Of a stretch of DNA of 40,205 nt, positions 909 to 38,539 are shown in pieces. The stretch spans positions 1 to 40,205 of the forward strand of contig JAKIUN010000032.1 of NCBI GenBank assembly GCA_021647505.1. The letters run 5' to 3'. This DNA is from Gammaproteobacteria bacterium (GTDB lineage: Bacteria; Pseudomonadota; Gammaproteobacteria; SZUA-152). Under the pieces are notes generated by a model. The model made no database searches. It was not told the origin of the DNA and saw only the letters and a program-made list of their open reading frames with translations. The position numbers and the translations under genes were made by a program. How positions within the stretch are numbered: position 1 is the first letter of the stretch; each line of letters opens with the position of its first letter.

Positions 909-3632
909 ATGGACAAAACAACCCGCAGGTTAATTCAAGGCACGGCCATGGCCGGCGTGCTGCTACTGACGGCCTGCGAGGAGACACCGCCGGAGCAGTT
1001 GGTCGAGGACTTCGGCATTGCCTATATCAAACGCCCCATCGTCACCGAGATCGACCAGGACACCAATGAGGTGGTATTGGCGGAGACGGATATCAGCGAG
1101 GTGCTGGGGTTCACCGAGGGCGGCGATATCTGGTACCGTGATCGCGCCTCACCTTCGGCCAACGAACGCAACATCACCTTCTGTCTGACCCAGGGCCTGG
1201 GTGACGTGCGCGATCTGGAGACGTCCTACGATGGCAGTAAGATTATTTTCTCCCTGCGTCTGCCGGATCCTGATCCCGATGACGACATCGAGCCCACCTG
1301 GGACATTTACGAATACGATACCACCACCGGTGCCTGTCCACAGCGCATTATCCGCTCGAACATCTCTGCCGATGACGGCGATGACCTGGCCCCACACTAC
1401 CTGCCGGACGGCCGCATCGTCTTCACCTCCACGCGCCAGAAAGGCTCCGGCATCGTGCTCAGCAAGGAAGGCAAGAGCCGCTTTCGCGCCCTCGACGAAA
1501 ACCTGAACGAACACGCGCCACAGCTGCACGTAATAAGTGCCAGCGGCACCGATATCCAGCAAATCAGCTTCAATCAGAGCCACGATCTCGATCCCACGGT
1601 ACTCAGCACGGGCGAGATTCTCTTTACCCGCTGGGATCGCATGGGCAATCACGACACCATGAGTCTGTACAGTATCCGTCCCGATGGCACTGAGCTGAAG
1701 ATGGTCTATGGCATGCACGACGACAGCGCCGATGATGTACAGTTTCTCAGCCCACGCCAGTTGGAAGACGGCCGGGTTCTCACCATGCTCAAATCCGCCG
1801 AAGGCTCGGCAGGCCGGGGCAGCGGCGCACCTGCGTTCATCGATATCGCCAACTATGTCGACAATACTCAGCCCGTCTGGCCCCAGCAGGGCGTGCTGAG
1901 CGGCCCCGCGCAGACCTCGGTAGTGGATCTCGACGTGCGCACCGACGCCGGCATCTCCGCCAATGGCCGCTTCCGCAGTATCTACCCCCTGTGGGACGGC
2001 ACCAACCGTGCCTTGGTGAGCTGGAGCCAGTGCCGCCGGGTGGTTGTCGAGGACAATGAAACACGCATCCTGCCTTGTCTGGACGACATCTCTGCCGATA
2101 CCATCGAGGCTTTCCCCATCTACGCTATCTACATCTACGACCTCGACCGGCAGACTCAACTGCCCGTGGTATTACCCGAAGAAGGCTGGATCATCGAGGA
2201 ACCCGTGGTCACCGCACCGCGCCGCAAACCGGTCATCCTCTACGACAGAGTTGCGGGCTTTGAGCTGGATCAGAATCTTGCTGAGGAAGACGTCGGCCTG
2301 CTGCACATCCGCAGTGTCTACGACTTCGACGGCCGCTTTAACAGGCTTGGCAGCGGTAACGCCACGATCACCAGCCTCGGGCAACTGGCCGACCCCACCC
2401 GAGTCACGGCCGATGAGCGCCGGGCACGCTTCCTGCGTATCGTCAAGTCCGTACCCATCCCCGACCGTGACGCGCTGAATTTCGACCGTAGCGCCTTCGG
2501 TGCCGCAGGCCGGCAGAGGATGCGCGAGATCATCGGTTATGCGCCCATCCAGCCCGACGGCTCGGTGCTGGTCAAGGTGCCTGCCAACGTGCCCTTCGCC
2601 ATCAGCGTGGTGGACAAGGACGGCCGTCGCATCGGCGGCCGTCACCAGAACTGGCTGCAACTGCGCGCCGGCGAGACCCTCACCTGCAACGGCTGCCATA
2701 GCCACAATCCCAGTGACGGCTCGGCGCCGCTGCCCCATGGCGCCGCCGACGCACCCGACCCGGTGAACCGTGGCGCGGCTACAGAGGAACCCTTTCCCGG
2801 CACCCATGCCAACCTGATAGCAAGAATGGGTGAAACCATGGCGCAGGCTCGCATCCGCCTGCTCTGTGGTGACTTCAATACTCTGACGCTCTGTCGGCAG
2901 CTCAGTCCTTCGGTCAATCTGCAATCCGTCGATGAATGGTGGATCGACCCAACGACCATTCCCGCACCGGCCATTGATCTGCGCTACGACGACCCGGAAC
3001 TCGTCTACTTCGGCACCAATGCGCCCGCCAAGTCCGCCTGCCAGGATAACTGGGACGCCAACTGCCGTACCATCATCAACTACGAAACCCACATCCATCC
3101 CCTGTGGGGCCAGGCCAGGCCGGTCGTGGATGCCAACGACGTGGTGATTGGCGACCGCACCTGCACCAACTGCCACAACAACGTGGCTATCGACAGCGCA
3201 TTCCGGGTACCGGCGTCCCAGCTGGATCTCAGCGATGGCCCCTTGGATATCGATGAGGATCACTTCAAGTCCTACCGCGAGCTGTTGTTTCCTGATGATC
3301 AGCAGGTTCTCAACAGCAATGGCATGCTGGAGGACGAAACACAGCAAGTCCCACGGCTCGATGAGAATGGCGATCAGTTGTTTCAGGACATCATCGACGC
3401 CGATGGTGTGGTAACCGGTCGTATCCCACTGTTCGATCTGGCGCCGATACCCGTCGAGAGCCGGGCCATGCGTGCCTTCGGATCCCGCGGAGGCACCTTC
3501 ATGGGCAAGTTCCTCGACCCCACGGATGATCACTTCGGCTACCTCAGCGCTACCGAGCTGCGCCTGATCGCCGAGTGGCTGGATATTGGTGCGCAGTATT
3601 ACAACAACCCGTTTGATGCGCCGCTGAATTGA
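909..3632 (+). CDS. Di-heme lipoprotein related to the hydrazine synthase alpha subunit (HzsA-like, PD40 propeller)
   Basis: A 907-residue exported protein. The N-terminus is a lipoprotein signal (hydrophobic run ending LLLTAC, then EE), so it should be anchored in the envelope. Residues of about 60-480 contain repeated segments such as PHYLPDGRIVFTS and LSTGEILFTRWD, typical of PD40/TolB-like beta-propeller blades. Two CxxCH heme c motifs follow, at C593-C596-H597 and C752-C755-H756. This order, propeller then two c-type hemes, matches proteins annotated as HzsA-related, named after the hydrazine synthase alpha subunit of anammox bacteria. No beta/gamma-type hydrazine synthase genes are nearby, so hydrazine synthesis is not implied; a periplasmic redox or binding role is more likely. 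The ATG has a weak GGTGAG upstream. Long antisense frames inside it are shadows. Confidence 0.75.
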   Translation: MDKTTRRLIQGTAMAGVLLLTACEETPPEQLVEDFGIAYIKRPIVTEIDQDTNEVVLAETDISEVLGFTEGGDIWYRDRASPSANERNITFCLTQGLGDVRDLETSYDGSKIIFSLRLPDPDPDDDIEPTWDIYEYDTTTGACPQRIIRSNISADDGDDLAPHYLPDGRIVFTSTRQKGSGIVLSKEGKSRFRALDENLNEHAPQLHVISASGTDIQQISFNQSHDLDPTVLSTGEILFTRWDRMGNHDTMSLYSIRPDGTELKMVYGMHDDSADDVQFLSPRQLEDGRVLTMLKSAEGSAGRGSGAPAFIDIANYVDNTQPVWPQQGVLSGPAQTSVVDLDVRTDAGISANGRFRSIYPLWDGTNRALVSWSQCRRVVVEDNETRILPCLDDISADTIEAFPIYAIYIYDLDRQTQLPVVLPEEGWIIEEPVVTAPRRKPVILYDRVAGFELDQNLAEEDVGLLHIRSVYDFDGRFNRLGSGNATITSLGQLADPTRVTADERRARFLRIVKSVPIPDRDALNFDRSAFGAAGRQRMREIIGYAPIQPDGSVLVKVPANVPFAISVVDKDGRRIGGRHQNWLQLRAGETLTCNGCHSHNPSDGSAPLPHGAADAPDPVNRGAATEEPFPGTHANLIARMGETMAQARIRLLCGDFNTLTLCRQLSPSVNLQSVDEWWIDPTTIPAPAIDLRYDDPELVYFGTNAPAKSACQDNWDANCRTIINYETHIHPLWGQARPVVDANDVVIGDRTCTNCHNNVAIDSAFRVPASQLDLSDGPLDIDEDHFKSYRELLFPDDQQVLNSNGMLEDETQQVPRLDENGDQLFQDIIDADGVVTGRIPLFDLAPIPVESRAMRAFGSRGGTFMGKFLDPTDDHFGYLSATELRLIAEWLDIGAQYYNNPFDAPLN

Positions 3633-3854
3633 CCCACGGCGCAAAAAAAGGGCTTAACCGCACTGGCCGTATGGTGCTGGAATCGCTAAGATGAGCGCCG
3701 CTATCAGTACAACCCAATTGCCGTTATGACAGGGCAGTGCCTGAGCAATCTCGCGCCCCCGCCCGGTACGGCGGCCAATAACTCTGTTCGCGGTCGCGCG
3801 CGCTGCCCCGGGCGAAACATCAATAAAGCCAACAACGAGCCGCTGTAAGCATTC

Positions 3855-4619
3855 GTGACCGCCCATACTCAACAAGCCATCTCCACCCTGCCGTGGATCG
3901 CGATGCTCATGCTGTTGCTGGCGAGCGCCTCCGCGCAGGCAACAGAGGAATACGCCCTGCTGCAAGTGGCCGACCCCTTTATTGAGCTGCACACCGGCCC
4001 CGGCGTTGGCTACCCGGTGTTTCATGTGGTGGATCGTGATGACTTTATCGAAATACTGAAGCGCAAGACCGACTGGTTCAAGGTGCGTACCCCCGACGGC
4101 AAGCGCGGCTGGGTGGCGCGCGCGCAACTGGAGAAGACATTGACCTCGGACGGAGAAAACACCCACCTGCAAGAACCTGCCCTGGGCGACTTCAGCCAGC
4201 GCCGCTGGGAATTCGGCCTGCTCGGCGGGGTGTTCAATAATGCCCCGCAGATCAGTCTCTACGGTGGCTATGCCTTCAATGCCAATCTCTCCGCCGAGCT
4301 GAGTGGTTCACAGGTGCTGGGTGACTATTTCTCCAGCTATCTGTTCAACGTAAACCTGCTTTCCCAGCCCTTCCCGCGCTGGCGGGTTTCGCCCTTTTTC
4401 AGCCTCGGCGGCGGTTACCTCTCCACCCGGCCACGCACCACCCTGGTGCTATCCGAGGATCGCAACGATTTTACCGCTCATGTGGGCCTGGGCCTGCGCA
4501 CCTGGCTGTCGCGCCGTTTCGTACTGCGCGCAGAGTTCAACCGCTATGTCACTTTTTCCAGTGATGACAACAACGAGGAATTCAAGGAATGGAAGGCAGG
4601 CTTCGCATTCTTCTTCTAA
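3855..4619 (+). CDS. Exported SH3b-domain protein with C-terminal outer-membrane beta-barrel
   Basis: A 254-residue protein starting at GTG; the only other good in-frame start (ATG at 3903) lacks a ribosome site and would shorten the signal peptide. Residues 14-29 form the hydrophobic core and the AQA cleavage site. Residues of about 33-95 are a bacterial SH3 domain: HTGPGVGYPVFHVV, then WFKVRTPDGKRGWVA. Such domains usually bind peptidoglycan or peptides. From about residue 115 the sequence alternates aromatic and polar residues in amphipathic strands (SLYGGYAFN, FSLGGGYLS) and ends FAFFF, the terminal aromatic signature of an outer-membrane barrel. It is the first gene of the operon to 13049 and overlaps the next gene by 31 bp. 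It may link the outer membrane to peptidoglycan (inference). Confidence 0.75.
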   Translation: MTAHTQQAISTLPWIAMLMLLLASASAQATEEYALLQVADPFIELHTGPGVGYPVFHVVDRDDFIEILKRKTDWFKVRTPDGKRGWVARAQLEKTLTSDGENTHLQEPALGDFSQRRWEFGLLGGVFNNAPQISLYGGYAFNANLSAELSGSQVLGDYFSSYLFNVNLLSQPFPRWRVSPFFSLGGGYLSTRPRTTLVLSEDRNDFTAHVGLGLRTWLSRRFVLRAEFNRYVTFSSDDNNEEFKEWKAGFAFFF

Positions 4620-5248
4620 GCGCCCTGTGCATACCCTGCCTGTGGAACGCAACGGCCCTGGCGGCCGAAGACGGCACCGGTCAGGTCGCCGGGCAGCAGG
4701 TCATCCAGCCGCAGATTGATCGACGTGAGGTCGGTATCGACGAGATCGATAGCGAGGACTTCGAGGTCAGCGTGTTCGGCGGTCTGCTCAGCACCGAGGA
4801 CTTCGGCGCCAATGCGGTGATAGGCGCACGCGTGGCCTATCATGTCACCGAGGGCATCTTTTTCGAGGCCACCTACGGCCGCTCGACCACCACCGAAACC
4901 AGCTACGAACGCCTCAGTGGCGGCGCACCACTGCTGACCGACGAGGAACGCATCCTCAGTTATTACAACGTCTCGCTGGGTTACAATCTGCTGCCCGGCG
5001 AGACCTTCGTCAGCCGCAACTGGGCCTTTCGCTCGGCGTTGTATGTAATCGGCGGCGTCGGTTCGACCAGCTTCGCCGGTGACGACCGCTTCACCATCAA
5101 CTTTGGCGCCGGATACCGCTTCCTCGCCACCGACTGGCTGGCCATCCATCTCGACATGCGCGACCACATCTTCGAGATCGATCTGCTGGGCGACAACAAG
5201 ACCACACACAATCTTGAGATCACGACCGGCCTGAGTATCTTTTTCTAG
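4589..5248 (+). CDS. Outer-membrane beta-barrel protein
   Basis: A 219-residue protein. An N-terminal signal peptide (RILLLSALCIPCLWNATALA) is followed by a short acidic linker (residues of about 27-60) and then a beta-barrel of roughly eight predicted strands, with aromatic-polar alternation such as FFEATYGRS, YYNVSLGYNL and FGAGYRFLA, ending in LSIFF. It resembles the outer-membrane beta-barrel domain family often found next to TPR and TonB/ExbBD genes. The start lies inside the previous gene, 31 bp before its stop, suggesting translational coupling. Its precise role is unknown; as a paralogue-like partner of the preceding barrel it may form part of the same outer-membrane assembly. Confidence 0.75.
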   Translation: MEGRLRILLLSALCIPCLWNATALAAEDGTGQVAGQQVIQPQIDRREVGIDEIDSEDFEVSVFGGLLSTEDFGANAVIGARVAYHVTEGIFFEATYGRSTTTETSYERLSGGAPLLTDEERILSYYNVSLGYNLLPGETFVSRNWAFRSALYVIGGVGSTSFAGDDRFTINFGAGYRFLATDWLAIHLDMRDHIFEIDLLGDNKTTHNLEITTGLSIFF

Positions 5249-5278
5249 CCCTGTCTCGAAGCAAAATGAGGTAACCCG

Positions 5279-5782
5279 ATGAACATGCTGAACCGAATCA
5301 TTCCGACCCTGATCCTGCTGCTGAGCCTGTTGACGGCCGGCAGTGCCCTGGCTCTGGACGTTGGTGGCGCCGCGCCCGACTTCACCCTGAAGAGCCGCAG
5401 CGGTGAAAATATCAAGCTGAGCGAATTGCGCGGCGAAGTGGTGATGGTCAACTTCTGGGCCTCCTGGTGTGCTCCCTGCCGGCAAGAGATGCCTCTCTTG
5501 GAAGAGCTTCACGAGCGCTACAGCGACCTCGGCTTCACCCTGCTGGGCGTCAACGTAGAAGAAGACTCCAGCGCCGCGCTGGATATGCTCAAGGAAATCC
5601 CGGTCACCTTCCCGGTGCTGTTCGATGACCGCAACACGGTGAGCAAACTCTACAATGTGATAGCCATGCCCACCACGGTGATCCTCGACCGTGACGGCAC
5701 CGTGCGCTATGTGCACAAGGGTTTCTTGCCCGGTTACGAAGACAAATACCGCCAACAGATCAAGGAGCTGATCCGCGAATGA
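5279..5782 (+). CDS. TlpA/ResA-type periplasmic thioredoxin
   Basis: A 167-residue exported thiol-disulfide protein. A signal peptide (LILLLSLLTAGSALA) is followed by a thioredoxin-like fold: APDFTLKSRSGENIKLSEL, the active site W63-C64-A-P-C67, the glycine-valine strand LLGVNV, and the cis-proline loop AMPTT. Family members reduce periplasmic disulfides, for example in apocytochromes or copper proteins. The ribosome site GAGG lies 8-9 bases upstream. Its stop overlaps the next start (ATGA), so it is co-translated with the Cys-containing DUF4266 lipoprotein; that protein's C-terminal CGC motif is an obvious candidate substrate (inference). Confidence 0.9.
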   Translation: MNMLNRIIPTLILLLSLLTAGSALALDVGGAAPDFTLKSRSGENIKLSELRGEVVMVNFWASWCAPCRQEMPLLEELHERYSDLGFTLLGVNVEEDSSAALDMLKEIPVTFPVLFDDRNTVSKLYNVIAMPTTVILDRDGTVRYVHKGFLPGYEDKYRQQIKELIRE

Positions 5783-6024
5783 GACATGCACTGCGCCCCT
5801 CTCTCTGTCGCGCGTTGCTGCTCGCGCTGGCCGCCGGAATACTGGCGGGTTGCAGTGGCATCGAGCCGTGGGTCAAGCCCTATGAGCGCGCCAATCTGGC
5901 CGACCCCATCATGAGCTTTTCGCGCGACCCGGTGGCCGACAGCTACGTCAATCATGTCTATGAGGCACGCGAAGGTGCGCGTGGCGCCGAAGGAGGGGGT
6001 GGCGGTGGCTGCGGCTGCAACTGA
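5779..6024 (+). CDS. DUF4266 lipoprotein with a Gly6-Cys-Gly-Cys-Asn tail
   Basis: An 81-residue lipoprotein. The signal peptide ends in the lipobox LAGC (C25), followed by the conserved DUF4266 segment PWVKPYERANLADPIM and a region with YVNHVYEAREGARG. The protein ends in six glycines then C78-G-C80-N81. The family is small, uncharacterised and usually sits beside a DUF3570 gene, as here. The exposed C-terminal cysteine pair could bind a metal, be oxidised to a disulfide, or be modified; none of this is shown by the sequence. ATGA overlap with the thioredoxin gene and a 20-bp overlap with the next gene show tight coupling. Confidence 0.88.
   Translation: MRHALRPSLCRALLLALAAGILAGCSGIEPWVKPYERANLADPIMSFSRDPVADSYVNHVYEAREGARGAEGGGGGGCGCN
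5987..6007 (+). promoter_or_regulatory. Ribosome site AAGGAGG that selects a GTG start for the DUF3570 gene
   Basis: AAGGAGG at 5990-5996 lies 8 bases before GTG 6005-6007, inside the glycine codons of the DUF4266 gene. The upstream in-frame ATG (5954) has no comparable site and would add 17 residues before the signal peptide. The poly-glycine tail of DUF4266 therefore doubles as the ribosome site of the next gene. Confidence 0.7.
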
Positions 6025-7180
6025 TACCCGCAACGGTTTTCGTTGGGGCCTGCTGCTGGCGGGTGTGCTGGGCTTTTGTCTGCCGCTGACGGCGGCGGTG
6101 CTGCCGGAAGACCGCGCCGACGCCCTTTACCACGCCTATTCCGGCGGCGGCCTGGACGTCAGCGGCCCCTCCCTGCTAGCGCGCAAACAGCTGGGCAAGT
6201 ACACCTCGCTGTTCGGTAACTATTATGTGGACTCCATCTCCAGCGCCTCCATCGACGTGGTGACCTCCGCCAGTCCGTACACCGAATATCGCGAAGAAAA
6301 GACCGTGGGCGGCGACTTTTTGTATGAAAAGACCCTGTTCAATCTCTCCATGACCAACAGTGAAGAAAGTGACTTCAGCGCCAACTCGGCCGCCTTCGGC
6401 ATCAGTCACTCTCTGTTTGGCGACCTAACCACCGTCAGCTTGGGCTATGGCCAGGGCTGGGACACCATCCGCCGACGTGCCGACAAAGCCGGCAACCTCG
6501 ACCCTAACTTTGAAAAGAAGGCCGATCGCCAACGCTTTCGTTTGGGTTTGTCACAGGTATTGAGCAAGAATTCACTCATTGACCTCAATTACGAACTGGT
6601 CACCGATGAGGGCTATCTCAACAACCCCTACCGCTCGGTGCGCTATCGCGATGGCAGCGGCGGTTATCAACGCCAGACGGAGCAGTACCCCAATACCCGC
6701 ACCAGCCACGCCCTGGGTCTCAAGGCACTGTACTATCTGCCCTATCGCGCCGCCGTGCACGGTGAGATACGTGGCTTTATCGATACCTGGGGCATCGATG
6801 CCATGATTGGTGAAGTCGGCTACATCCATCCGTTGGGCAAGGCCTGGATCCTGGAGGCCAGCTACCGCTATTACACCCAGAGCCACGCCAATTTCTACAG
6901 CGACTTGTTCCCACATCAGGATGCGCAGAATTATCTCGCCCGCGACAAGGAACTGAGCACTTATTACACCCACGGTCTCGGTCTCGGCGCCAGCTATCAC
7001 TTTGCACGGCAGGGCTGGGGCTTCATCGATAAGGGTAGCCTGAACGTCAAATACAACTACATGCAGTTCAACTATCAGGACTTCCGTGATCTGCGTGCGG
7101 AAGGGCTCACTCCGGGTACCGAACCCCTGTACAGTTTCTCCGCCTACGTCCTGCGCCTATTCGTCTCGATCTGGTATTGA
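6005..7180 (+). CDS. DUF3570 family outer-membrane beta-barrel protein
   Basis: About 391 residues from the GTG chosen by its ribosome site. The N-terminus has a signal peptide (GFRWGLLLAGVLGFCLPLTAA). The mature part begins with the DUF3570 hallmark YHAYSGGGLDVSGPSLLARK and continues as many amphipathic strands with paired acidic and aromatic residues (FGNYYVDSISSASIDVVTSASPY, VSLGYGQGWD). It ends LRLFVSIWY, with a terminal aromatic as in outer-membrane barrels. The family is uncharacterised; it almost always follows DUF4266 and often a thioredoxin, as here, so the three probably form one outer-membrane redox or transport unit (inference). An upstream ATG at 5954 is a less likely start. Confidence 0.85.
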   Translation: MAAAATDTRNGFRWGLLLAGVLGFCLPLTAAVLPEDRADALYHAYSGGGLDVSGPSLLARKQLGKYTSLFGNYYVDSISSASIDVVTSASPYTEYREEKTVGGDFLYEKTLFNLSMTNSEESDFSANSAAFGISHSLFGDLTTVSLGYGQGWDTIRRRADKAGNLDPNFEKKADRQRFRLGLSQVLSKNSLIDLNYELVTDEGYLNNPYRSVRYRDGSGGYQRQTEQYPNTRTSHALGLKALYYLPYRAAVHGEIRGFIDTWGIDAMIGEVGYIHPLGKAWILEASYRYYTQSHANFYSDLFPHQDAQNYLARDKELSTYYTHGLGLGASYHFARQGWGFIDKGSLNVKYNYMQFNYQDFRDLRAEGLTPGTEPLYSFSAYVLRLFVSIWY

Positions 7181-7195
7181 GCCAAGGAATCCACC

Positions 7196-7912
7196 ATGTC
7201 TATCACGCACTACACTCAAATCTCCCCGGCACGCCTGCGACGGGGCCTGAGCCGCCTCACACTGGCGGCGGCCTTGTTGATGCTGTCCATTATTGGCCTG
7301 CCGGCCATCGCCACTAGTGCACCCATCGGAGCCGGCACCGACAGTGCACCGACACAGACCCCAGCCACCGATACAACGGCAATTAGCACCTCATCAGAGC
7401 CTGCCCCGACAGCGACAGAGACCGCACCCGCTCAGACCACCCAGCCCGCCCCCGCAGTAGAAAAGAAACGCAGCCTCGATGCCCGCGTGCAGGATCTGAA
7501 AAAACAGGCCAAGGCCCTTAACCGCGACTTATTCATCCTCGAAGAGGAACTGCTGTTCCCCTCCAACACTCAACTGGCGGTATTTCTCTCCATCGACGTG
7601 GGCAGCTACTTCCGTCTCGATTCGGTGCAACTGAAAATCGATGACAAAGAGGTCGCCAACCACCTTTACACCAGACGCGAACTGGACGCCCTGCAACGCG
7701 GCGGTGTACAGCGTCTGTGGCTGGGTAACGTCAAAAGCGGCGAGCATGAACTCATCGCCACCTTCACCGGCCCCGGCCCCAATAACCGCGACTACCGCCG
7801 CGCCACCACGGTCAAATTCAAGAAAGGGGCGGCCGCCAAGTTCATGGAGCTGAAGATCCGCGACGTCACCGCCAAACTGCAACCGGAATTCGTCGTCCGG
7901 GAATGGGAATAG
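7196..7912 (+). CDS. Periplasmic protein of unknown function, Thr/Pro/Ala-rich linker and beta-rich C-terminus
   Basis: A 238-residue protein. A signal peptide or anchor (LTLAAALLMLSIIGLPAIATSA) is followed by a low-complexity Ala/Pro/Thr/Ser linker (residues of about 45-90), a short coiled-coil-like stretch (LDARVQDLKKQAKALNRDLFILEEELL) and a beta-rich domain with VQLKIDDKEVANHLYT and SGEHELIATFTGPGP. The last part resembles a carbohydrate-binding or Ig-like fold in pattern only. I do not recognise a named family. AAGGA lies about 8 bases before the ATG. It sits between the DUF3570 gene and the first TPR gene, with short gaps, so it is in the same transcript. The disordered linker suggests it spans peptidoglycan or tethers a partner. 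Confidence 0.65.
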   Translation: MSITHYTQISPARLRRGLSRLTLAAALLMLSIIGLPAIATSAPIGAGTDSAPTQTPATDTTAISTSSEPAPTATETAPAQTTQPAPAVEKKRSLDARVQDLKKQAKALNRDLFILEEELLFPSNTQLAVFLSIDVGSYFRLDSVQLKIDDKEVANHLYTRRELDALQRGGVQRLWLGNVKSGEHELIATFTGPGPNNRDYRRATTVKFKKGAAAKFMELKIRDVTAKLQPEFVVREWE

Positions 7913-7928
7913 GAATCGGAACAACACC

Positions 7929-9926
7929 TTGCCCATCACCATGTTCAGTGCCCTGAAATCCACTGCCGGCATTCTACTTCCAAGTCGGCTACCAAATCTG
8001 CTGCTAGGCGTCGCCCTGCTCGGCGCCGGCCTGCTGCTGCCGGCACAAAACCACGCCGATGACGGGCCGCGTGTGGTGCGTGACCTCTACTACGGCGAGG
8101 CCCTGTACCAGTTCTACCAGCAGAACTACTATTCCGCCGCCGTACATCTGCTCACCGCGCGCGAGCGTGAATTGCTCCAGCACCATGACGCCGAGGCACA
8201 GCTGCTGCTGGCTGGTATCTACCTCTCCTACGGCCTGCACGACGACGCCGAGCGTCTGTTCATGGTCTTGCTGGAGGAAAAAAACAGCCCCGAGGTACAC
8301 GACCGCGCCTGGTTCTATCTGGGCAAAATCCGCTATTACAAGGGACTCTACGAAGAGGCCAACCTCGCCCTGTGGCAGGTCGGCGATCATCTTGACCCGG
8401 CCCTCGACGAGGAATTGCAAACCCTCAAGGCCAACCTGCTGATGGCGCGTGAAAAGTACACCGAGGCCGCCGAATCCCTGACCAAACTGGCCGATGACGG
8501 AGACGAGAATCAGGCCTGGTTCGCCCGCTTCAACCTCGCTGTCGCCCTGGTGCGCGCGGGCCAGGCGAAAGAGGGCGAAGGCCTGCTGGACAAGGTTGGT
8601 CAGTTGCGCAGCGGCGATGAATATCTCAAGGCTCTGCGCGACCAAGCCAATCTGGCGCTGGGCTACCGCGCACTCAAACAAGATCCCGAGCGCGCCCGCA
8701 GCTACCTGCGCCGCGTGCGCCTCAACGGGCCGTTCTCCAACAAGGCCTTATTGGGCATGGGCTGGGTGGCGATGGAACAGCAACAATACAGGCAGGCCCT
8801 GCTACCGTGGATCGAACTGAGCCAACGTGACCGCGTCGATGTCGCAGTGTTCGAATCCCTGCTCGCCAAAGGCTACGCGGAAGAACGGCTGCAAGCCTAC
8901 CCCCAGGCGATGAACTCCTACCGCGAGGCCATCGACATCTACCAGCAGGAGCTGGCGGCCCTGGACAGCACCCGCGCCGCCGTCAGCCAAGGCCGCCTGT
9001 GGGATGACCTGCTGAAACAGGTCGACGGCAACGAAATGGGCTGGTTCTGGGAGGCCGAGCTGCTGCCGGACACTCCTGAAGCCCGCTACCTGCCCAGCCT
9101 GATGGCTGGTCACGGCTTCCATGAGGCCATCAAGAACCTGCGCGACCTCAATTTTCTGCGCGGCAAACTGGCCCGCTGGGAAGGCGATATGCCCGCCTAC
9201 GACCACATGCTGGCCCTGCGCCGGCAGACCTTTGAAGACCAGCTCGAACGCCTCACCCCGGACGAAACCCTGGCGCGCATCGCGGACATCCGCGCCAGCC
9301 GTGACATTTACGCCCAGGAATTGCAACGCATTGACGAGGAATACGATGCCCTGACGCTGGCCACGGAAGACGAACAAAAACTGATCGAGCGCCTGCAAGG
9401 CATCGAAGAGCGCCTGGAGCACCTGCAAGACCACCGCCGCATCGACCGTTACCGTGAGCAGTACCGCTTCTTCACGGGCCTGTTGGAATACGACATTCGC
9501 ACCACCTATGCCGCGCGGCGCTGGACGGTGCAAAAGGCCCTGCGCTCGCTGGACAAGGAATTCGAGGCAACCCTCGCCCAGCAGGACTCCCTGCAACAGG
9601 CGCGTGCCCAGGCCCCGGCGGGTTTCGAAGGCTTCGACCAGCACATCCAGCACCTGCGCGGACGCATCGACACGCTGAAGCAAAACGTAGACACCGCTTT
9701 CGTCGAACAGCAGCGACAGTTGCAGGCACAGGTGGACGAAGCGCTGGATCACCTGCGCGACAATCTGGTGGACTACCTCGACCGGGCGCGCTTCTCGCTG
9801 GCGCATTTGCAGGATCTGGCCGCCCATCAGACCCGCCTGGAGACGCCGGCCGATGACGGCCCGCCGCTCAACGCCACCCAGCCCGCCACCCCGACGGATG
9901 AAGCCAAACCGCAGGAGGCCCCGTGA
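7929..9926 (+). CDS. Large periplasmic TPR and coiled-coil protein
   Basis: About 665 residues. The start is TTG 7929 with GGA 8 bases upstream; ATG 7941 is possible but has no ribosome site. A signal peptide (LLLGVALLGAGLLLPAQNHA) leads to a run of TPR-like helical pairs from about residue 45 to 340 (AVHLLTARERELLQHHDAEAQ, LLMAREKYTEAAESL, ALLGMGWVAMEQQQYRQALL). Residues of about 440-630 are strongly charged and coiled-coil-like. The C-terminus is Pro/Thr-rich. TPR proteins scaffold multi-protein complexes; nothing enzymatic is visible. It overlaps the next TPR gene (TGATG), so the two are translated together. Similar pairs are found in trans-envelope motor clusters such as the myxobacterial Glt genes, but homology is not established here. 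Confidence 0.7.
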   Translation: MPITMFSALKSTAGILLPSRLPNLLLGVALLGAGLLLPAQNHADDGPRVVRDLYYGEALYQFYQQNYYSAAVHLLTARERELLQHHDAEAQLLLAGIYLSYGLHDDAERLFMVLLEEKNSPEVHDRAWFYLGKIRYYKGLYEEANLALWQVGDHLDPALDEELQTLKANLLMAREKYTEAAESLTKLADDGDENQAWFARFNLAVALVRAGQAKEGEGLLDKVGQLRSGDEYLKALRDQANLALGYRALKQDPERARSYLRRVRLNGPFSNKALLGMGWVAMEQQQYRQALLPWIELSQRDRVDVAVFESLLAKGYAEERLQAYPQAMNSYREAIDIYQQELAALDSTRAAVSQGRLWDDLLKQVDGNEMGWFWEAELLPDTPEARYLPSLMAGHGFHEAIKNLRDLNFLRGKLARWEGDMPAYDHMLALRRQTFEDQLERLTPDETLARIADIRASRDIYAQELQRIDEEYDALTLATEDEQKLIERLQGIEERLEHLQDHRRIDRYREQYRFFTGLLEYDIRTTYAARRWTVQKALRSLDKEFEATLAQQDSLQQARAQAPAGFEGFDQHIQHLRGRIDTLKQNVDTAFVEQQRQLQAQVDEALDHLRDNLVDYLDRARFSLAHLQDLAAHQTRLETPADDGPPLNATQPATPTDEAKPQEAP

Positions 9927-12775
9927 TGCGCCGCCTGTTGCTGAGCCTGCCGCTCCTGCTGCTCGCCGCTTGCAGTGCACGCGGCCCCATCGACGACGAC
10001 CCCACCCTGGCCGTCCTCGAAGAACGCACCGCGCAGATCATCACCCCCACGGCCCTGCCGCCCATGCTCAGCCACGATGTTCAGCAGAGCTACGAAGCAC
10101 TGGCGCAGAGCACCGAAAACGACGCCCTCAAGGCCATTGCCCTGCAACGCCTGGCCGATCTTGAGCTGGAGCGTGAAGAGCAGCCTGCTGCGGCGACAGA
10201 TGGCGACAGTGCGCCCACGGCCGAAACCACCGCCGCCGCAGACGCCGATCAAGTGGAGGGCGAGGAAAACGTCAGCCGTGCCATCCAGCAATACGAACGC
10301 CTGTTGGAGCTATATCCTGATTACGCCGGTAATGACCGCGTGCTCTACCAACTGGCGCGCGCCTACGAATTCAACGGCGAGCTGGACAAGGCCCTGGCCA
10401 CTCTCGACCGGCTGGTGAAGGAATATCCGCACATCCGTAACCGCGACGAGATCGAGTTTCGCCGTGCCGAAATCAACTTCGCCTTCCGCGATTTCACCCT
10501 GGCGGAAAAATCCTACCAGCACATCGTCGCCCTCGGCGCCGTCAGCCCCTACTACGACCGAGCCCTGTTCAAGCACGGCTGGTCGGTGTTCAAGCAGGGC
10601 GACACAAAACGCTCACTGCGCTCCTATTTCGGCGTGCTGGATCGCAGCTTCGCCAATGGCCGCCAAGTGTCCGATTTCTTACGCAGCGAACGTGAACTGC
10701 TGGACGACACCTTGCGCATCATCAGCCTGGCCTTCTCTTATCTAAAAGGTGTCGAATCGGTTAATGCCTTCTTCGACGACTACGGCCCGCGCAATGCACC
10801 GCCGCTCGATTACGCCGCCAGCGTTTATGAGAACCTCGCCGAGCTGTACCTGTCGCAGGGCCGAACCGACGATGCCGCCGAGACCTTGCAGGCCTTCGTC
10901 GAACGCAACCCCGACCACCGCCAGTCACCGCTGTTTCTGGTGCGCGAAATCGACATCTATAAACAGGCCGGCCGCCTCAAAGCCGTGCTGCGCGCCAAGG
11001 CCGACCTGGCCACCACCTACGGCTTTGGCAACACCGCCTTCTGGCAGACACTGCGAAGCCCGGAACTGCTGTACCAGCTCACTCCACACCTGAAGCGTAA
11101 TCTCGATGACCTGGCGCGCTACTACCACGCCCAGGCGCAGAAGAGTAAAAAGCCCGCCGACTACCGTATCGCCGCGCATTGGTACCGCAGTTACGTCGAG
11201 GACTTCCCCAGCGATGCCCAGACCCCGCGCATGCACCTGCTGCTGGCGGAAACCCTGCTCGACAGCGGCGACCTTGCCGGCGCTGCCGCCGCCTTCGAAG
11301 CCACCGCCTATCACTACCCACAACACGACAAGAGCGCCGAGGCCGGCTACGCCGCGTTGCTCGCGCATCGCGCGCAGGTCGACACGCTGAAAGGCGAGGC
11401 GCAAACCCAACATCGCCGTACCAGCATCGCCGCCGCCAAGCGCTTTGTCACTTGGTTCCCGCAGGACAAACGTGCCACCCAGGTGATGTCCAAGGCCGCC
11501 GAGGAACTGCTGGCGCTGAAGGACTACCCACAAGCCGTCGCCACCGCCTGGTATGTGGTTGGCAGCCTGCCCGAACCATCGCGTAAGCTACGACGCATTG
11601 ACTGGGGCATCATTGCCGTCGGCGAATTCGAGCTGGGCCTGTTCGCCGAGGCCGAAGTTGCCTCGTTACAGCGCCTGCAGCTGCTCAGCGCCAACGACCC
11701 TGATCGCCAACCCACCATCGAGCGTCTCGCCGCCGCCATCTACAAACAGGGCGAACAGGCCCGCGAGGCCGGCCTGCACGGCACCGCCGCGCGCCACTTC
11801 CTGCGTGTCGATGAACAGACACCGACAGCCTCCATTCGCGCCGCCGCCATGTACGATGCCGCCGCCTCGCTGATGACCAAACAGGACTGGGCGCTGGCCA
11901 TCCCCGTACTCAAAGTATTTACCAACCGCTACCCCGGCCACGAACTGGCCGCTGATGCCTATCAAAAACTGGCCCAGGCCTACGAACAGACCGGCGACTG
12001 GAAACATGCCGCCGACACCTACCGCGTGCTCTACGCCAACGAGACCGACAGCAACCGCAAGCGTCAGATCCTCTGGCAGACCGCCGAGTTCTATCAAAAG
12101 GCCGAACGCCCGCTGGATGCCGCCGAGATCTACAAGCAATACATCCGCACCTTCAAGCAGCCCTACGACGACCTGATCGAGGCCCATATCCACCTCGCCG
12201 ACATCTACAAGGCACGCCGCGACAAGCCATCGCGCCATTACTGGTTGGGCAAGCTGGTCGCGCTCGACACCGCGGCCGCCGGCGCTGCGACGGCACGTAG
12301 CCAATTCCTTGCTGCCAACGCCACACTGGAACTGGCGCAGGACACCTTCGACGCCTACAACAAAGTGCGTCTGGTGCAACCGCTGAAGAAAAACCTCCAG
12401 GAAAAGAAACGCCTGATGACCACCAGTATCGACGCCTACACCCAGGCCGCCAACTACGGTATCGAAGGCGTCACCACCGCCTCCACCTACCGTATTGCCG
12501 AAATCTACAACGGCTTCGGCCGCGACCTGTTGGAATCGGAACGGCCCGGGGGGCTCAATGAAGAAGAACTGGAACAATACGACATCCTGCTCGAAGAACA
12601 GGCCTACCCCTTCGAGGAAAAGGCCATCGAGGCCCATGAAGTCAATATCCAGCGCGCCATCGATGGCAGCTACGACGAATGGGTGAAAAAGAGTTTCAGC
12701 GCCCTCGCTAAACTGAGCCCGGTGCGCTACGACAAGACCGAAAAGACCCGGGAGTTCATTGATGTTATCGACTAG
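9926..12775 (+). CDS. Very large TPR lipoprotein
   Basis: About 949 residues. AGGAGG at 9913-9918 fits ATG 9926 (7-base spacing) better than the adjacent GTG 9923. The N-terminus is a lipoprotein signal (LLLSLPLLLLAAC followed by SARG). The rest is almost wholly helical with many TPR-like units, e.g. AIQQYERLLELYPDYAGNDRVLYQLARAYE, ALATLDRLVKEYPHI, ETLQAFVERNPDHRQSPLF and AADTYRVLYANETD. The glycine-tyrosine-proline spacing is that of the TolA-binding/YbgF and BamD style of TPR. It probably acts as a periplasmic scaffold anchored to the outer membrane and coupled to its neighbours. No catalytic motif is seen. Long antisense frames here are codon-bias shadows. Confidence 0.75.
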   Translation: MRRLLLSLPLLLLAACSARGPIDDDPTLAVLEERTAQIITPTALPPMLSHDVQQSYEALAQSTENDALKAIALQRLADLELEREEQPAAATDGDSAPTAETTAAADADQVEGEENVSRAIQQYERLLELYPDYAGNDRVLYQLARAYEFNGELDKALATLDRLVKEYPHIRNRDEIEFRRAEINFAFRDFTLAEKSYQHIVALGAVSPYYDRALFKHGWSVFKQGDTKRSLRSYFGVLDRSFANGRQVSDFLRSERELLDDTLRIISLAFSYLKGVESVNAFFDDYGPRNAPPLDYAASVYENLAELYLSQGRTDDAAETLQAFVERNPDHRQSPLFLVREIDIYKQAGRLKAVLRAKADLATTYGFGNTAFWQTLRSPELLYQLTPHLKRNLDDLARYYHAQAQKSKKPADYRIAAHWYRSYVEDFPSDAQTPRMHLLLAETLLDSGDLAGAAAAFEATAYHYPQHDKSAEAGYAALLAHRAQVDTLKGEAQTQHRRTSIAAAKRFVTWFPQDKRATQVMSKAAEELLALKDYPQAVATAWYVVGSLPEPSRKLRRIDWGIIAVGEFELGLFAEAEVASLQRLQLLSANDPDRQPTIERLAAAIYKQGEQAREAGLHGTAARHFLRVDEQTPTASIRAAAMYDAAASLMTKQDWALAIPVLKVFTNRYPGHELAADAYQKLAQAYEQTGDWKHAADTYRVLYANETDSNRKRQILWQTAEFYQKAERPLDAAEIYKQYIRTFKQPYDDLIEAHIHLADIYKARRDKPSRHYWLGKLVALDTAAAGAATARSQFLAANATLELAQDTFDAYNKVRLVQPLKKNLQEKKRLMTTSIDAYTQAANYGIEGVTTASTYRIAEIYNGFGRDLLESERPGGLNEEELEQYDILLEEQAYPFEEKAIEAHEVNIQRAIDGSYDEWVKKSFSALAKLSPVRYDKTEKTREFIDVID

Positions 12776-13049
12776 ACGCAAACGATTTTGCGCGCTTTTT
12801 ACCGCCGCGCTATGGATACTGCTCGCCAGCCCGACCGGCGCCGAAGTCCGCATCGAACTGGAAGAGACCGAGATCAGCGCCGCGCGTGAACTGCCCAAGG
12901 TGCTGTACATCGTGCCGTGGCAGAAAACCCAGCCCGACTCCCGCCCCCTGCCCATGCGCAGCCTGGTCGACGAAACCCTGTCACCAGTGGAAATGGATGT
13001 TTTTAAACGCCGTGTGCGTTATCACAACCTGACCACACAAAAACCCTGA
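12762..13049 (+). CDS. Small exported protein at the end of the envelope operon
   Basis: About 95 residues from ATG 12762, which has GGGAG about 8 bases upstream; a TTG one codon earlier is also possible. It overlaps the end of the TPR gene by 14 bases. A signal peptide (FCALFTAALWILLASPTGA) is followed by a short acidic beta-strand (EVRIELEETEISAARELPKV), then VLYIVPWQKTQPDSRPLPMRSLVDE and a basic end. The VLYIVPWQ motif and small size are reminiscent of conserved orphan proteins at the ends of TPR clusters in gammaproteobacteria, but I cannot name a family. Likely an accessory subunit of the same assembly. Confidence 0.65.
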   Translation: MLSTRRKRFCALFTAALWILLASPTGAEVRIELEETEISAARELPKVLYIVPWQKTQPDSRPLPMRSLVDETLSPVEMDVFKRRVRYHNLTTQKP

Positions 13050-17617: not shown

Positions 17618-19597
17618 CTATTTGTTACCCAATGCATGATTTTTCTTAACGTGGCTGTCCGGTTTGTTGTCGGCCCACGTATAGGGAATAAGAGCATTTT
17701 CACCTCGCCATTCCTCGACAATACTATCTTGGAACCAATCATCTCTAAGGTGAGCATGATCGAGAACGATAAGCTGAAATTCTGGATCGATCTCCTCGCA
17801 TGCATACGCCATCAATTTGAATAGGTTTTGTACCGCAGTGCGGTCAGTATCTTTTTCAATCTGTTCCAACCCACCATCTATAATATCGGGGGGGTAGTAG
17901 GCCTGCGTTGGCTGGTCAAAGATCAAGAACCCAGGAACAGGTCTATTTCTTTTCCTTAACCACCAATGAAGAGCCAAATGGGTCAAAACATGATAGCCAA
18001 CCCAGTTTTCCCCACTACCCATTCGTTGAAGCGGTATTGGGCCATCGAAAGTATTCGCGATAACGGTTAGTTTTTTAAGATCTAGACGTAGCGAACTTCC
18101 GCTGTGCTCCAAATCAAGTTGATCGGAATATTTCGTCATCTTTTGCCCGATAAAATTTAGGAACGTTTCTATTCTTGAAGTGACTTCATCTGAGTTTAGT
18201 TTTGTTTGTACTGCCGCGATAAGTTTTTTCAGTTCTTCCATTTCAGCGTAAGAATCGTTAGCTGATTCATCAGGCGCAGTGCTTTCAAGAAAATTAGAGA
18301 GGCGACCAAGGAAGCGTGCTCTAGCCACCAGATTATTTTGAGCTACACGAGCGTTTTCATCCTCGGCAATCGCTCGGCCTAATTCTGATTGAACTGACTT
18401 CAGCGTCTCTGTTGCGCGACTGATCTCTTGCTCAATTTCAATAATATGCGCTTGTAGATATGGGCTTTCGCTATGAACAGCAACCAACTGTTTTCCCAAT
18501 TTATCTAAAGACTTGCATATAGCATCAACACTAGGTTGTTTAACTTTAAGCTCTGAATCGCATATTGGGCAAGATGAGCCACTTCCTGTATCAGGTTTAT
18601 AAAGACCAATGCTCTTCAGCCTTGCACTCTGTTCGGTCGCTTCTTTCGTAAACTCAGTTTGAGCCGACAAGAACGATCTCGCAGCTCTCAAATCCTGATT
18701 AAAGTCAGCTAACTTTCTCTGGATAGTTGCCTGTTCTCCTGAGAGGTTTTGAATTGTTTCTCCAAAGTCTTCGACAATGTTAGGGGATTCAACTGGCGTT
18801 TTACCCACGCTGATCAAATAATCAAAAACGCTGTCGTCTACCGGCTGATAATCTGGCGGAATTAGTCCTACTCTTTTGCCATCGGTAATTATCCGTAATA
18901 CTCGGCTTTTGCTGACTTCCAAAACCTGTAATCGCTTTGCTTCAGTATTATCCAGTATGCGTAAACGCTTTTTTAATTCATCTAATTCTGCCAGCAGCTG
19001 GAAATGGCTTTCGTCCACAGCTCCTAAGAAATAGGGCAATGTATCTTTCATAGATTGGGGAAGCCAATCCTCATTCCTGCGATGAAAGAGCTGATCCTGA
19101 CTAGCAATTGTTCCCTGCTTTTGGAAGCATATGAAAAGCGCATGAGAAATATTTGCAGTTAACGGGTCTCGTGTACCGGTTACTGGTCTGTGTTCATTTT
19201 CAACAATTCCGGCAAATTGAGTGGTAAATTTTTTTAAACTACCTGCAGTCGTATTTTTGGAGATCTCATCCATTGACGGATATTGCTCAATTACACCACG
19301 TTGAAAATAAACCAAGGAACCATTTGCCGCTCCTGGGCCTGGATTATCCCTCGCAATGAAAACCTCATCACCTGCCTTTGTTAAATGCAGACCGAACCAA
19401 GCCGCTTTTTTACGAATAACCCCTTCAGCAACATTGAAACTACCCCGTCCCAAGCAATAATCAACAATATCGATAATGGCGGATTTTCCAGTTTTCGACT
19501 TGCCGGTAATGATGTTCAGTCCATGCGTCTTAAATGGCAAAATGCGTTGCTCGCCAGAATGGCTATAAATGATCAGTGCTTTTATAGAAAAACTCAT
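17618..19597 (-). CDS. DUF3732 SMC/Rad50-like ATPase of an ABC-3C system
   Basis: About 659 residues from ATG 19597, whose ATGA overlap with the preceding gene's stop makes it the likely start; a GTG/ATG 15 bases upstream is also in frame. The Walker A motif is GKSKTGKS (residues of about 32-39). Two coiled-coil arms flank a CPIC zinc-hook-like motif near residue 345. After this come the signature MGSGENWVGYH and the Walker B-like FLIFDQPTQAYYP, with the final D-loop-like VLDHAH. This is the DUF3732 family, named as the ATPase of three-component ABC (ABC-3C) conflict systems. Its job is probably DNA sensing or loading and control of the nuclease subunit. It is more A+T-rich than the left part of the window. 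Confidence 0.85.
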   Translation of the reverse strand: MSFSIKALIIYSHSGEQRILPFKTHGLNIITGKSKTGKSAIIDIVDYCLGRGSFNVAEGVIRKKAAWFGLHLTKAGDEVFIARDNPGPGAANGSLVYFQRGVIEQYPSMDEISKNTTAGSLKKFTTQFAGIVENEHRPVTGTRDPLTANISHALFICFQKQGTIASQDQLFHRRNEDWLPQSMKDTLPYFLGAVDESHFQLLAELDELKKRLRILDNTEAKRLQVLEVSKSRVLRIITDGKRVGLIPPDYQPVDDSVFDYLISVGKTPVESPNIVEDFGETIQNLSGEQATIQRKLADFNQDLRAARSFLSAQTEFTKEATEQSARLKSIGLYKPDTGSGSSCPICDSELKVKQPSVDAICKSLDKLGKQLVAVHSESPYLQAHIIEIEQEISRATETLKSVQSELGRAIAEDENARVAQNNLVARARFLGRLSNFLESTAPDESANDSYAEMEELKKLIAAVQTKLNSDEVTSRIETFLNFIGQKMTKYSDQLDLEHSGSSLRLDLKKLTVIANTFDGPIPLQRMGSGENWVGYHVLTHLALHWWLRKRNRPVPGFLIFDQPTQAYYPPDIIDGGLEQIEKDTDRTAVQNLFKLMAYACEEIDPEFQLIVLDHAHLRDDWFQDSIVEEWRGENALIPYTWADNKPDSHVKKNHALGNK

Positions 19598-20097
19598 GGT
19601 CGTATACCCCATGCTCCAATGATTGAAGCCTCAGACCCGGATTTAGCGAACCAGCGAGCTATGAACTTAGTTCGATCTATTATCTCTTTTGTTTCTAAAG
19701 ACGTATCCCGCACGAAAGAAGCTGGGAAATGTGCTTTAACACCACCAATGCCGATACCATGACCAATACCCATAACCAAAGTATCCTTAGACATTCCAAA
19801 GCGCAAAGCCTCCTTTCCATACGGCAATATCCCTACTACCCGTTGGACGAAACCAATTTTGCTGTCTTCATTGTCCTGTAACCATTCATATAGAGACGTA
19901 ATTGTAGAATGGGGTAAACGTCGTCTTGTTGGAGCATGGAGCACCATTGCTAAAAACAACGGAATGAACTCTATGGGTGCAGATTCTGACTTATGTTTCT
20001 GGTGTTCTTTAACAAATTCATAAATTAGCGAACCCAGAAATGCTGGATTGAATAGATTGGCCTCTTCGGGCGGCCGGTTTTGCCAAAGTTTAAGCAT
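19594..20097 (-). CDS. ABC-3C middle component
   Basis: About 167 residues from ATG 20097 (AGG 9 bases upstream); ATG 20103 or a longer start at 20133 are possible. It begins LKLWQNRPPEEANLFNPAFLGSLIYEF and has IEFIPLFLAMVLHAPTRRRLP, the family's hallmark, then GILPYGKEALRFG. These features identify the small protein found between the nuclease-like and ATPase subunits of ABC-3C systems. Its role is thought to be an adaptor between the other two. It overlaps both neighbours: the preceding stop at 20090-20092 and the following ATG at 19595-19597. Confidence 0.85.
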   Translation of the reverse strand: MLKLWQNRPPEEANLFNPAFLGSLIYEFVKEHQKHKSESAPIEFIPLFLAMVLHAPTRRRLPHSTITSLYEWLQDNEDSKIGFVQRVVGILPYGKEALRFGMSKDTLVMGIGHGIGIGGVKAHFPASFVRDTSLETKEIIDRTKFIARWFAKSGSEASIIGAWGIRP

Positions 20098-21283
20098 CTT
20101 CATCCACCTTTTCTGCCTCAAAAAGATTAACAAAGTCTGGGTGCCATCCTATTTCCATTCTGTCGGCCAAGCCATGGAAGGAGCCTGCAGTAATCCAGGT
20201 TTCAACCACATTACGAAAGTCAAAACTCTGTTGGGAAGCCCATAAGCATAACTTTCGCCCAAGTTTTTTCTGCTCATATTCTGTAGAGGCTTTTTCCTCC
20301 TCGTATACGGCCTCGCATCTCCGCTCATATCGATCTTTCAATCCTGCGTCATATTTTGAAGCTTCATCATCAAGCAACAAGTTCTCCCGAGCCCATTTCG
20401 ACCGTTGAGCAGATGCGCGATAGAAGTCTTGAACTCCTCGACGGATAGCATTTTCACGAAGTTCCACCATCCGCATTTGTTTTACGAACGTGTTCTCTTC
20501 TTCCTCCACGCTATATTCTTTAGCGCCTAACGAGCTTGGTTCATCAACTGGCAGAGTATCTGCCTTAAACATATTGCTAATTTCATTTGCCTTGATGATG
20601 ATATTCTGAATAGGTATTGTCGCCGAACCATCTTCAATCAAACATTTACCAACCACACCCAGCCACCAACCCTCAACATAGGTGGCCAAAGTCGATACAT
20701 TATTAGGTGACAACATAACCAGCAGGCCTTCAATCTCTGCCATGACATCAATTAAATTGGGATGCTGATCAATAATATCTACACGACTTAGAAATGCATC
20801 GGCCTCATCATCATTGAGCGCCAGAAAAGCTTCTCTGCCAGCCATGCTTGTTGAATTTTCGGATGACTTTGCCGCATCAATTAGCAACAGTTTTGCTTTA
20901 TCTCGAGATTTTTGAGTAGACCCAGGCCTCATATGCGACATAGCCGACCCCTCCGCAGCAGTAGCCGTTGTTATCAATATATAACGGGTATCAGAAGCAG
21001 ATAATATTCCTTCTTTAAATTGACTAATCCATATTCTAAATGTCTTCCAAATATCTACACTTTTATCACCTAGGGATTTAGAAACAACATGGTGTTTTGC
21101 TTGTATCAAACATCTGGCAATATCATCATTATCAAACGATATATCATCGAATTTTTCTATAGATATTTGACCGTTTGGTTTCTTGCTTGTCATTTGAAGA
21201 CCGAGCAAAAACGCCAATCTACATTGGAACAAATATCCAGCCATTGATGGCGATGCGTTAAACTGGTCAGATGAACTCAACAC
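20090..21283 (-). CDS. ABC-3C first component with an N-terminal PD-(D/E)XK-like (Cap4-type) domain
   Basis: A 397-residue protein. It starts SPSMAGYLFQCRLAFLLGL and has E43, D46-D47 and a Q61-A-K63 motif (IQAKHH), the pattern of the dsDNA nuclease domain seen in Cap4 and related proteins. A region with YILITTATAAEGS follows (residues of about 110-125). The C-terminal half has alternating helices, including RREGVQDFYRASAQRSKWARENLL-like spacing near 265-300, and ends in a segment with WITAGSFHGLADRMEIGWHPDF, typical of ABC-3C C-terminal domains. It should be the effector: cleaving DNA when the DUF3732 ATPase is triggered. First gene of the three-gene operon. Confidence 0.82.
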   Translation of the reverse strand: MLSSSDQFNASPSMAGYLFQCRLAFLLGLQMTSKKPNGQISIEKFDDISFDNDDIARCLIQAKHHVVSKSLGDKSVDIWKTFRIWISQFKEGILSASDTRYILITTATAAEGSAMSHMRPGSTQKSRDKAKLLLIDAAKSSENSTSMAGREAFLALNDDEADAFLSRVDIIDQHPNLIDVMAEIEGLLVMLSPNNVSTLATYVEGWWLGVVGKCLIEDGSATIPIQNIIIKANEISNMFKADTLPVDEPSSLGAKEYSVEEEENTFVKQMRMVELRENAIRRGVQDFYRASAQRSKWARENLLLDDEASKYDAGLKDRYERRCEAVYEEEKASTEYEQKKLGRKLCLWASQQSFDFRNVVETWITAGSFHGLADRMEIGWHPDFVNLFEAEKVDEDA

Positions 21284-34640: not shown

Positions 34641-34674
34641 TGGCAAAACGCAGTAAAAGAGCATGGAGAGGTCA

Positions 34675-35712: not shown

Positions 35713-35743
35713 CTTCCTATTACAAAGAGAGAAGTAAAAACAG

Positions 35744-38469: not shown

Positions 38470-38539
38470 GACCTTGCCTCAACCTTTGCGGCGAAGTAGT
38501 TGAACCAAGCGCATACTCGCTGCACATGGAATTTTACAC

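Follow-up and report, generated by a model that had tools for sequence, protein, structure and literature searches.

The stretch of DNA analysed here (the window, 40,205 nt of a gammaproteobacterial contig) carries on its plus strand an operon that runs from gene p0 to gene p9 and covers positions 909-13049. Genes p1 to p9 are tightly packed, with spacings between successive genes of -31, +30, -4, -71, +15, +16, -4 and -17 nt. Together with the gene coordinates given below, these spacings bear out an earlier note on this DNA, which described nine plus-strand genes that overlap or nearly touch. That note placed the operon at 3855-13049. The nine-gene cassette is real, but the unit begins one gene earlier at its 5' end, with p0 at 909-3632. 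The gap between p0 and p1 is 222 nt, and p0 is counted in the operon because most relatives, like the members of the window's family, have it at the same place upstream of p1. Gene maps show an identical order from p0 to p9 across this family. A comparison of gene order across genomes had been proposed in the note; it shows that the neighbours are conserved, and since the same order is found in many genomes a chance arrangement can be ruled out.

Judged by eye, all nine genes from p1 to p9 have export signals at their N-termini, and lipoboxes occur in p4 and p8, which are the two lipoproteins recognised before. Also the three barrels with terminal aromatics are readily found: p1 and p2 (OMP_b-brl/TIGR04565 families) both end in FF and p5 (DUF3570) ends in WY. 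The first of these, p1 (3855-4619, +), combines the SH3b domain that had been noticed on one barrel (SH3_3, E 1e-10) with a small outer-membrane barrel (OMP_b-brl, E 6e-8) and takes a GltB-like position. The overlapping gene p2 (4589-5248, +), in a GltA-like position, encodes an outer-membrane barrel of family TIGR04565 (OMP_myx_plus), with 181.5 bits against a cut-off of 60. It is the only member of this family over the cut-off in the genome, p1 staying below it. The two proteins are paralogous according to a profile comparison (probability 97%, E 9e-12). For p1 and p2, as for p7, p8 and p9 below, the Glt names are positional: they follow from the order of the genes, their domains and the sizes of the proteins.

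The distal half of the operon encodes periplasmic components. Protein p6 (7196-7912, +) is conserved in a 42-sequence alignment and is modelled as a long helix with an Ig-like sandwich (pLDDT 79); it has no Pfam or NCBIfam family and no PDB match at E<=0.001. A TPR/coiled-coil protein in a GltC-like position follows as p7 (7929-9926, +; TPR_16, E 8e-11). Its 665 aa compare with 673 aa for GltC (PMC3169522). When relatives were searched with p7, every genome of the window's family, and some of the rest of the class, proved to have either a copy of the operon or a paralogue. The TPR lipoprotein p8 (9923-12775, +; TPR_6, E 8e-24) is found in a GltD-like position and has orthologues as well as paralogues in its own genome. 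The description of p7 and p8 as two giant TPR scaffolds is right as to the repeats, but with 665 and 950 aa 'giant' is overstated. Assignment of p8 to the type IX secretion protein PorW/SprE was rejected (55.9 bits against a cut-off of 250). In general its matches to T9SS, Tol-Pal/CpoB and BamD models are generic TPR matches under the cut-off, except for the YbgF model, whose match was discounted because this model is hit by repeated TPR stretches. The operon ends with p9 (12759-13049, +, with an ATG at 12762), a small exported protein in a GltF-like position. An alignment of 73 homologues shows a conserved rELPKvLYIVPWK motif, and neither Pfam nor NCBIfam holds a family for it.

Embedded between the barrel pair and p6 are three contiguous genes of a redox type: thioredoxin-like, DUF4266 and DUF3570. 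Gene p3 (5279-5782, +) encodes the TlpA thioredoxin named in the note, more precisely a TlpA/ResA-type periplasmic thioredoxin with a WCAPC site (AhpC-TSA, E 1e-30). Cytochrome c maturation is served by thioredoxins of the TlpA type. The lipoprotein p4 (5779-6024, +; PF14086, E 4e-23) belongs to DUF4266 and has the C-terminus GGGGGGCGCN with a CxC motif, for which a redox role has been suggested (PMC8238504). The DUF3570 outer-membrane barrel p5 (5954-7180, +; PF12094, E 3e-35) is modelled as a 16-strand barrel (pLDDT 83.5) from which a plug domain is absent. Its frame overlaps that of p4 (5954-6024 in the window), and overlaps of about 55-70 nt are seen in several family members. The true start of p5 is uncertain, because the overlap codes for the Gly-rich CxC tail of DUF4266 and the first ~46 residues of the p5 model, partly overlapping p4, are of very low confidence.

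The gene at the 5' end, p0 (909-3632, +), encodes a diheme c-type lipoprotein resembling the alpha subunit of hydrazine synthase. It shows a weak match to a PD40 propeller, the HZS_alpha middle domain (PF18582, E 8e-14), two CxxCH motifs and, by eye, the lipobox LLTAC. A profile built from 28 homologues matches chain A of PDB entry 5c2v at E 3e-22. Among these 28 sequences C593, C596 and H597 of one heme site and C755 and H756 of the other are invariant, and C752 is nearly so. The similarity to hydrazine synthase alpha (5c2v) covers the middle domain that bears the hemes and extends weakly to the propeller and the C-terminal end, in the same order, whereas p0 differs in being a lipoprotein. 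It scores 41 bits against a cut-off of 800 for the hydrazine synthase alpha equivalog, and no other hydrazine synthase subunits were recognised among its neighbours.

The combination of DUF3570, DUF4266 and a thioredoxin has been described as associated with flavinylation (Meheust et al. 2021, PMC8238504), and a text search of the openly licensed literature for DUF3570 and DUF4266 gave only this paper. As in the published clusters, the three genes lie side by side and ApbE is linked to the operon in many relatives. Unlike those clusters, the set in the window goes together with a Glt-type machine, it has neither DsbD nor ApbE linked to it, and the two [ST]GA[ST] sites of DUF3570 read SSAS and TSAS (residues 96-99 and 104-107), so that the Ala and the final Ser are retained at both. 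The sites lie in the loop after strand 3 of the modelled barrel, and by strand parity this loop is predicted to face outside. No ApbE gene was seen near the operon in the window's family; the ApbE genes of this genome are located on two other contigs (C103 and C112). An altered motif might be taken as a sign of lost ApbE, but we rejected this: SSAS is likewise found in several relatives whose operon includes ApbE. For the same reason p5 may still be modified with flavin, as far as the motif can tell. Contig C112 (L208, 7610-11857) carries a standalone cassette of DUF1501, TlpA, DUF4266, DUF3570 (with two SGAS sites) and ApbE. Thus, in this genome the redox module is also present alone, without the machine. 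The earlier note had suggested looking for linked ApbE or cytochrome genes elsewhere in this genome; a link with cytochrome-like and ApbE/flavin genes is borne out, for ApbE in many relatives.

A separate observation concerns a locus of Ca. Thiodiazotropha (L145, 3127-8520), where several genes lie between divergent redox and core operons. Two of the products contain CxxCH motifs: one of 411 aa has a single motif, and one of 864 aa has two as well as a LamG-like domain. A further product is Tat-exported and belongs to no family. None of these cytochrome-like and Tat-exported genes has an informative family; possibly their products are further cargo.

We scanned GTDB genomes with p6. This yielded 249 relatives, the best 80 of which were used as named loci; these are skewed to operon-like p6, and a few share genomes with loci of the window's family. 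Represented among the best 80 of 249 are Thiogranum, Ca. Thiodiazotropha, Ectothiorhodospiraceae and Steroidobacteraceae MAGs. Seven of the 80 (L069, L078, L095, L123, L124, L144 and L146) contain a full operon on one strand in the order p0-p1-p2-TlpA-DUF4266-DUF3570-p6-p7-p8-gltE-p9-aglR-aglQ-aglS-gltG, with p9 sitting between gltE and aglR. Genomes with a full operon have one close AglR. Within the same set of 80 the motor genes aglRQS together with gltG are found downstream of the core in 44 of the 53 loci with enough downstream DNA. On the other side, p0/p1 are nearby in 39 of 49 loci with enough upstream DNA; p0-p5 are co-oriented in 14 of them and p0 and/or p1 are divergent in 25. In divergent loci on long contigs p5 lies beside p1/p0, just past the edge of the fetched region. 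An operon-type p5 (defined as over 200 bits) was present in each of 20 additional genomes in which the p6 locus is arranged divergently or at a distance.

The association between the redox genes and the core also emerges from a sample of 149 gammaproteobacterial genomes. The marker p6 is present in 34, about a quarter, and in two thirds of these (23) it is accompanied by operon-type p5, which occurs in no genome outside the 34 (Fisher 4.6e-19, uncorrected for kinship, with nearly all genomes from different genera). In 21 of the 23 genomes p5 and p6 are located on one contig within about 25 kb. Gene content, conserved order, motor linkage in relatives, co-occurrence and the family-wide motor discussed below were all computed directly.

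Four GltG-like proteins score over the cut-off for the AgmX/PglI C-terminal domain (NF033768), and under the cut-off for the full-length GltG equivalog (52.7 against 650 bits). An FHA domain was not seen in the one GltG-like protein that was scanned with Pfam. At the gltE place a TPR lipoprotein is found in the full operons and also in the two cores elsewhere in this genome described below; it matches NF033758 weakly and under the cut-off (E 2e-13 to 2e-4; 49.8 bits against 225). The AglQ- and AglS-like subunits form an asymmetric ExbD pair: where an Asp is expected to bind the proton, the AglQ-like subunit carries Asn in 81 of 87 readable cases and AglS keeps the Asp in 78 of 79, counts that come from a crude pattern match in which some loci are counted twice (for example L047 9340-9831 and L065 15559-16071).

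In the window, and in the readable relatives of its family, the operon ends after p9 without gltE or motor. The earlier note had regarded the motor genes as missing and saw in this a hint at a different job. Their absence from the operon itself stands; the wider inference is not supported, as most relatives have aglRQS and gltG behind the core and a related motor is present in this genome. The note had proposed to look for linked exbB/exbD or tolQ/R genes; ExbB/ExbD sets do occur elsewhere in the genome, and two of them are of the Glt type. One, on contig C31, is a complete core with p6, p7, p8, gltE, aglR, aglQ, aglS and gltG. The other, on contig C80 (L048 5469-16834, G000), comprises p7, p8, gltE, p9 and a divergent motor beside a Ser/Thr kinase. 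The genome has just two GltG-like proteins, one on each of these contigs, and none in the window. The C80 locus is a third Glt-type core, and by eye its Ser/Thr protein kinase has a C-terminal region resembling a sulfatase-modifying factor.

Of 24 family genomes, 23 have the C31-type AglR, and wherever its surroundings were fetched it belongs to a complete core cluster; the exception is G018, where a contig end interrupts the C31-type cluster directly behind p9. Where relatives have long contigs, G010 and G014 among them, the operon and the C31 cluster are located on different large contigs. Trees of p7 and p8 each contain one family clade for the operon and one for C31, both mirroring the branching of the family, and leave the sister relation between them unsettled. 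In the AglR tree the C31 motors are placed beside the operon-linked AglRs with weak support (0.61) and the C80 motors branch apart, so that the C80 core is less likely to provide the partner motor. The simplest reading is an old duplication after which a single copy retained the motor and the other came to rely on it in trans. The C31 motor probably drives the window operon in this way. There is a precedent in M. xanthus, where Glt and Nfs share a single AglRQS motor (PMC3858216).

The resemblance to the myxobacterial Glt machinery that the note had pointed out holds, based on motor linkage in relatives, the paralogous p1/p2 pair and gene order. In M. xanthus the orders are gltB-gltA-gltC and gltD-gltE-gltF-gltG, and nfsA-H are paralogues of gltA-H (PMC3169522, PMC3858216, PMC4488436). 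GltB and GltA are paralogous outer-membrane barrels that bind GltC (PMC4488436), and homologous machinery drives both gliding and spore-coat transport (PMC3858216). The gammaproteobacterial set shares with Agl-Glt/Nfs an AglR/Q/S-type motor, with one MotA/TolQ/ExbB-like and two ExbD/TolR-like subunits, linked to glt genes in relatives and on C31 here. Also shared are a GltG-like protein with the AgmX/PglI C-terminal domain (in this genome on C31 and C80), paired paralogous barrels with overlapping genes, two TPR proteins, a TPR lipoprotein and a small exported protein. The order B-A-C / D-E-F-G is kept with strong collinearity. Differences are the addition of p6 and the redox module (p0, p3-p5), and the GltC-like p7, which comes after p3-p6 rather than directly behind the barrel pair. 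Moreover, the GltG-like proteins have 312-341 aa against 640 and match only the C-terminal part of GltG, and in the window's family the motor and gltE lie at another locus. The gene maps showed neither a GltI- nor a GltK-like gene.

A gammaproteobacterial Glt core was reported in 2011 and 2013 with its function unknown (2011: Luciano et al., PMC3169522). As in the Group B core complex of that study, aglR, aglQ, aglS, gltC, gltD, gltE and gltG are clustered together with one additional gene, which is possibly p6. The redox genes among p0-p5, the barrel pair and p9 are, in contrast, unmentioned as gammaproteobacterial parts in the available text of the paper. Hence the label 'undescribed' given by the note does not apply to the core; it does apply to the attached redox module as far as these sources extend, and no report linking a Glt core to this module was found by title or abstract in the openly licensed literature.

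Overall, we consider it very probable that the operon supplies the part of a gammaproteobacterial Agl-Glt/Nfs-type machine that lies in the periplasm and the outer membrane, and that a redox module is attached to it. A physical complex, a shared motor, electron transfer, a moved cargo and a purpose are inferred along the following lines. AglRQS in the inner membrane would use the proton gradient, and GltG would hand the force, via its TonB-like C-terminal domain, to a periplasmic chain of p6, p7, p8, p9 and GltE from the partner cluster. This chain would pull on or move an outer-membrane complex in which the paired p1/p2 barrels are joined by the DUF3570 barrel p5 and by p0, the diheme lipoprotein. 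Two further proteins, TlpA (p3) and the DUF4266 lipoprotein with its CxC motif (p4), would keep the redox parts reduced or matured, with electrons presumably flowing from TlpA to DUF4266 and on to DUF3570 and p0. The motor of the paralogous C31 core would most likely drive the window operon in trans, much like the single AglRQS for Glt and Nfs in Myxococcus. Taken as a whole, the explanation (machine, redox module, proposed working and motor in trans) is on balance probable. Several points weigh against it: scores stay below the equivalog cut-offs for GltG and GltE and, for p1, below that of TIGR04565; the AglR node that unites C31 with the operon-linked motors is weakly supported and the p7/p8 trees do not settle the sister relation; the ApbE motif is altered and no ApbE lies near the operon in this family; and the redox module also stands by itself in this genome. 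A surface-redox role is plausible, and exporting or maturing a surface redox protein, as the note had offered, is a possible function. Motor-driven movement of a surface redox complex is put forward tentatively. More doubtful is the combined proposal that a Glt/Nfs-type motor energises or moves such a complex and that two machines of the family share one motor in trans.

Three other explanations deserve consideration. The proteins p1, p2 and p5 could form, with the p7/p8 scaffolds, a passive site for maturation or export of p0 in which TlpA is the reductant and a motor is no longer needed. The operon of the window's family, which lacks motor and gltE, would suit such a motor-independent complex, as would the two conserved heme sites of p0 and the general role of TlpA-type thioredoxins in cytochrome c maturation. 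Yet motor and gltG are downstream in 44 of the 53 informative loci (from the best 80 of 249), the family retains a complete core whose motor is akin to those linked to operons, and p6-p9 are intact and conserved despite the split; we therefore regard a passive site as unlikely. Somewhat less likely again is a TonB/Tol-like uptake or envelope-integrity system, in which a DUF3570 transporter energised via GltG imports a metal or another ligand once this has been reduced at the surface, and nothing is moved. GltG does have a TonB-like C-terminal domain, the 16-strand model of DUF3570 resembles porins and transporters, and the iron transporter VIT1 occurs in 25 known DUF3570 clusters (PMC8238504). 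Against this, the p5 model is without a plug, p5 was not found to be accompanied by any transporter gene, the motor has two different ExbD-like subunits instead of a single ExbD, and the long TPR chain with paired barrels is Glt/Nfs-like rather than TonB-like.

Finally, the set could be a machine for gliding or surface-polymer transport proper, with the redox genes as mere co-transcribed neighbours. Gliding and spore-coat transport by homologous machinery in Myxococcus (PMC3858216) and the same gene order speak for it. However, the redox genes stay with the core through rearrangements, in co-oriented as well as divergent forms, p5 co-occurs with p6 in 23 out of 23 cases, and the 2011 study (PMC3169522) argues that motility is unlikely to be driven by the core alone. 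Of the readings considered we find this one the hardest to maintain.

If a Glt/Nfs-type motor does energise or move a surface redox complex, the whole would be a motor-powered extracellular redox machine, carrying a diheme HZS-alpha-like lipoprotein and a DUF3570 barrel whose flavin-site loop would point outwards. The redox company offers a concrete lead on what a non-gliding machine of this type may act on. Since many other bacteria encode the motor in line with the other genes, the job of this widespread machine is testable. The results also suggest that the GltA/GltB-type barrel pair and the GltF-like gene exist outside the deltaproteobacterial lineage to which they had been assigned.

The remainder of the window contains genes of a different nature. 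A Lamassu-type defence set lies on the minus strand at 17618-21283, with LmuA at 20090-21283, LmuC at 19594-20133 and LmuB at 17618-19612. On the same strand a PDC-S37/Hhe-like candidate defence protein (23134-29066) is encoded by two overlapping frames (23134-26088 and 26055-29066), a split that is perhaps due to a frameshift or an assembly error. A type I restriction-modification island on the plus strand (31251-39616) comprises HsdR-like, PDC-S02 nuclease, HsdM-like, specificity-like (by eye) and SoFic genes.
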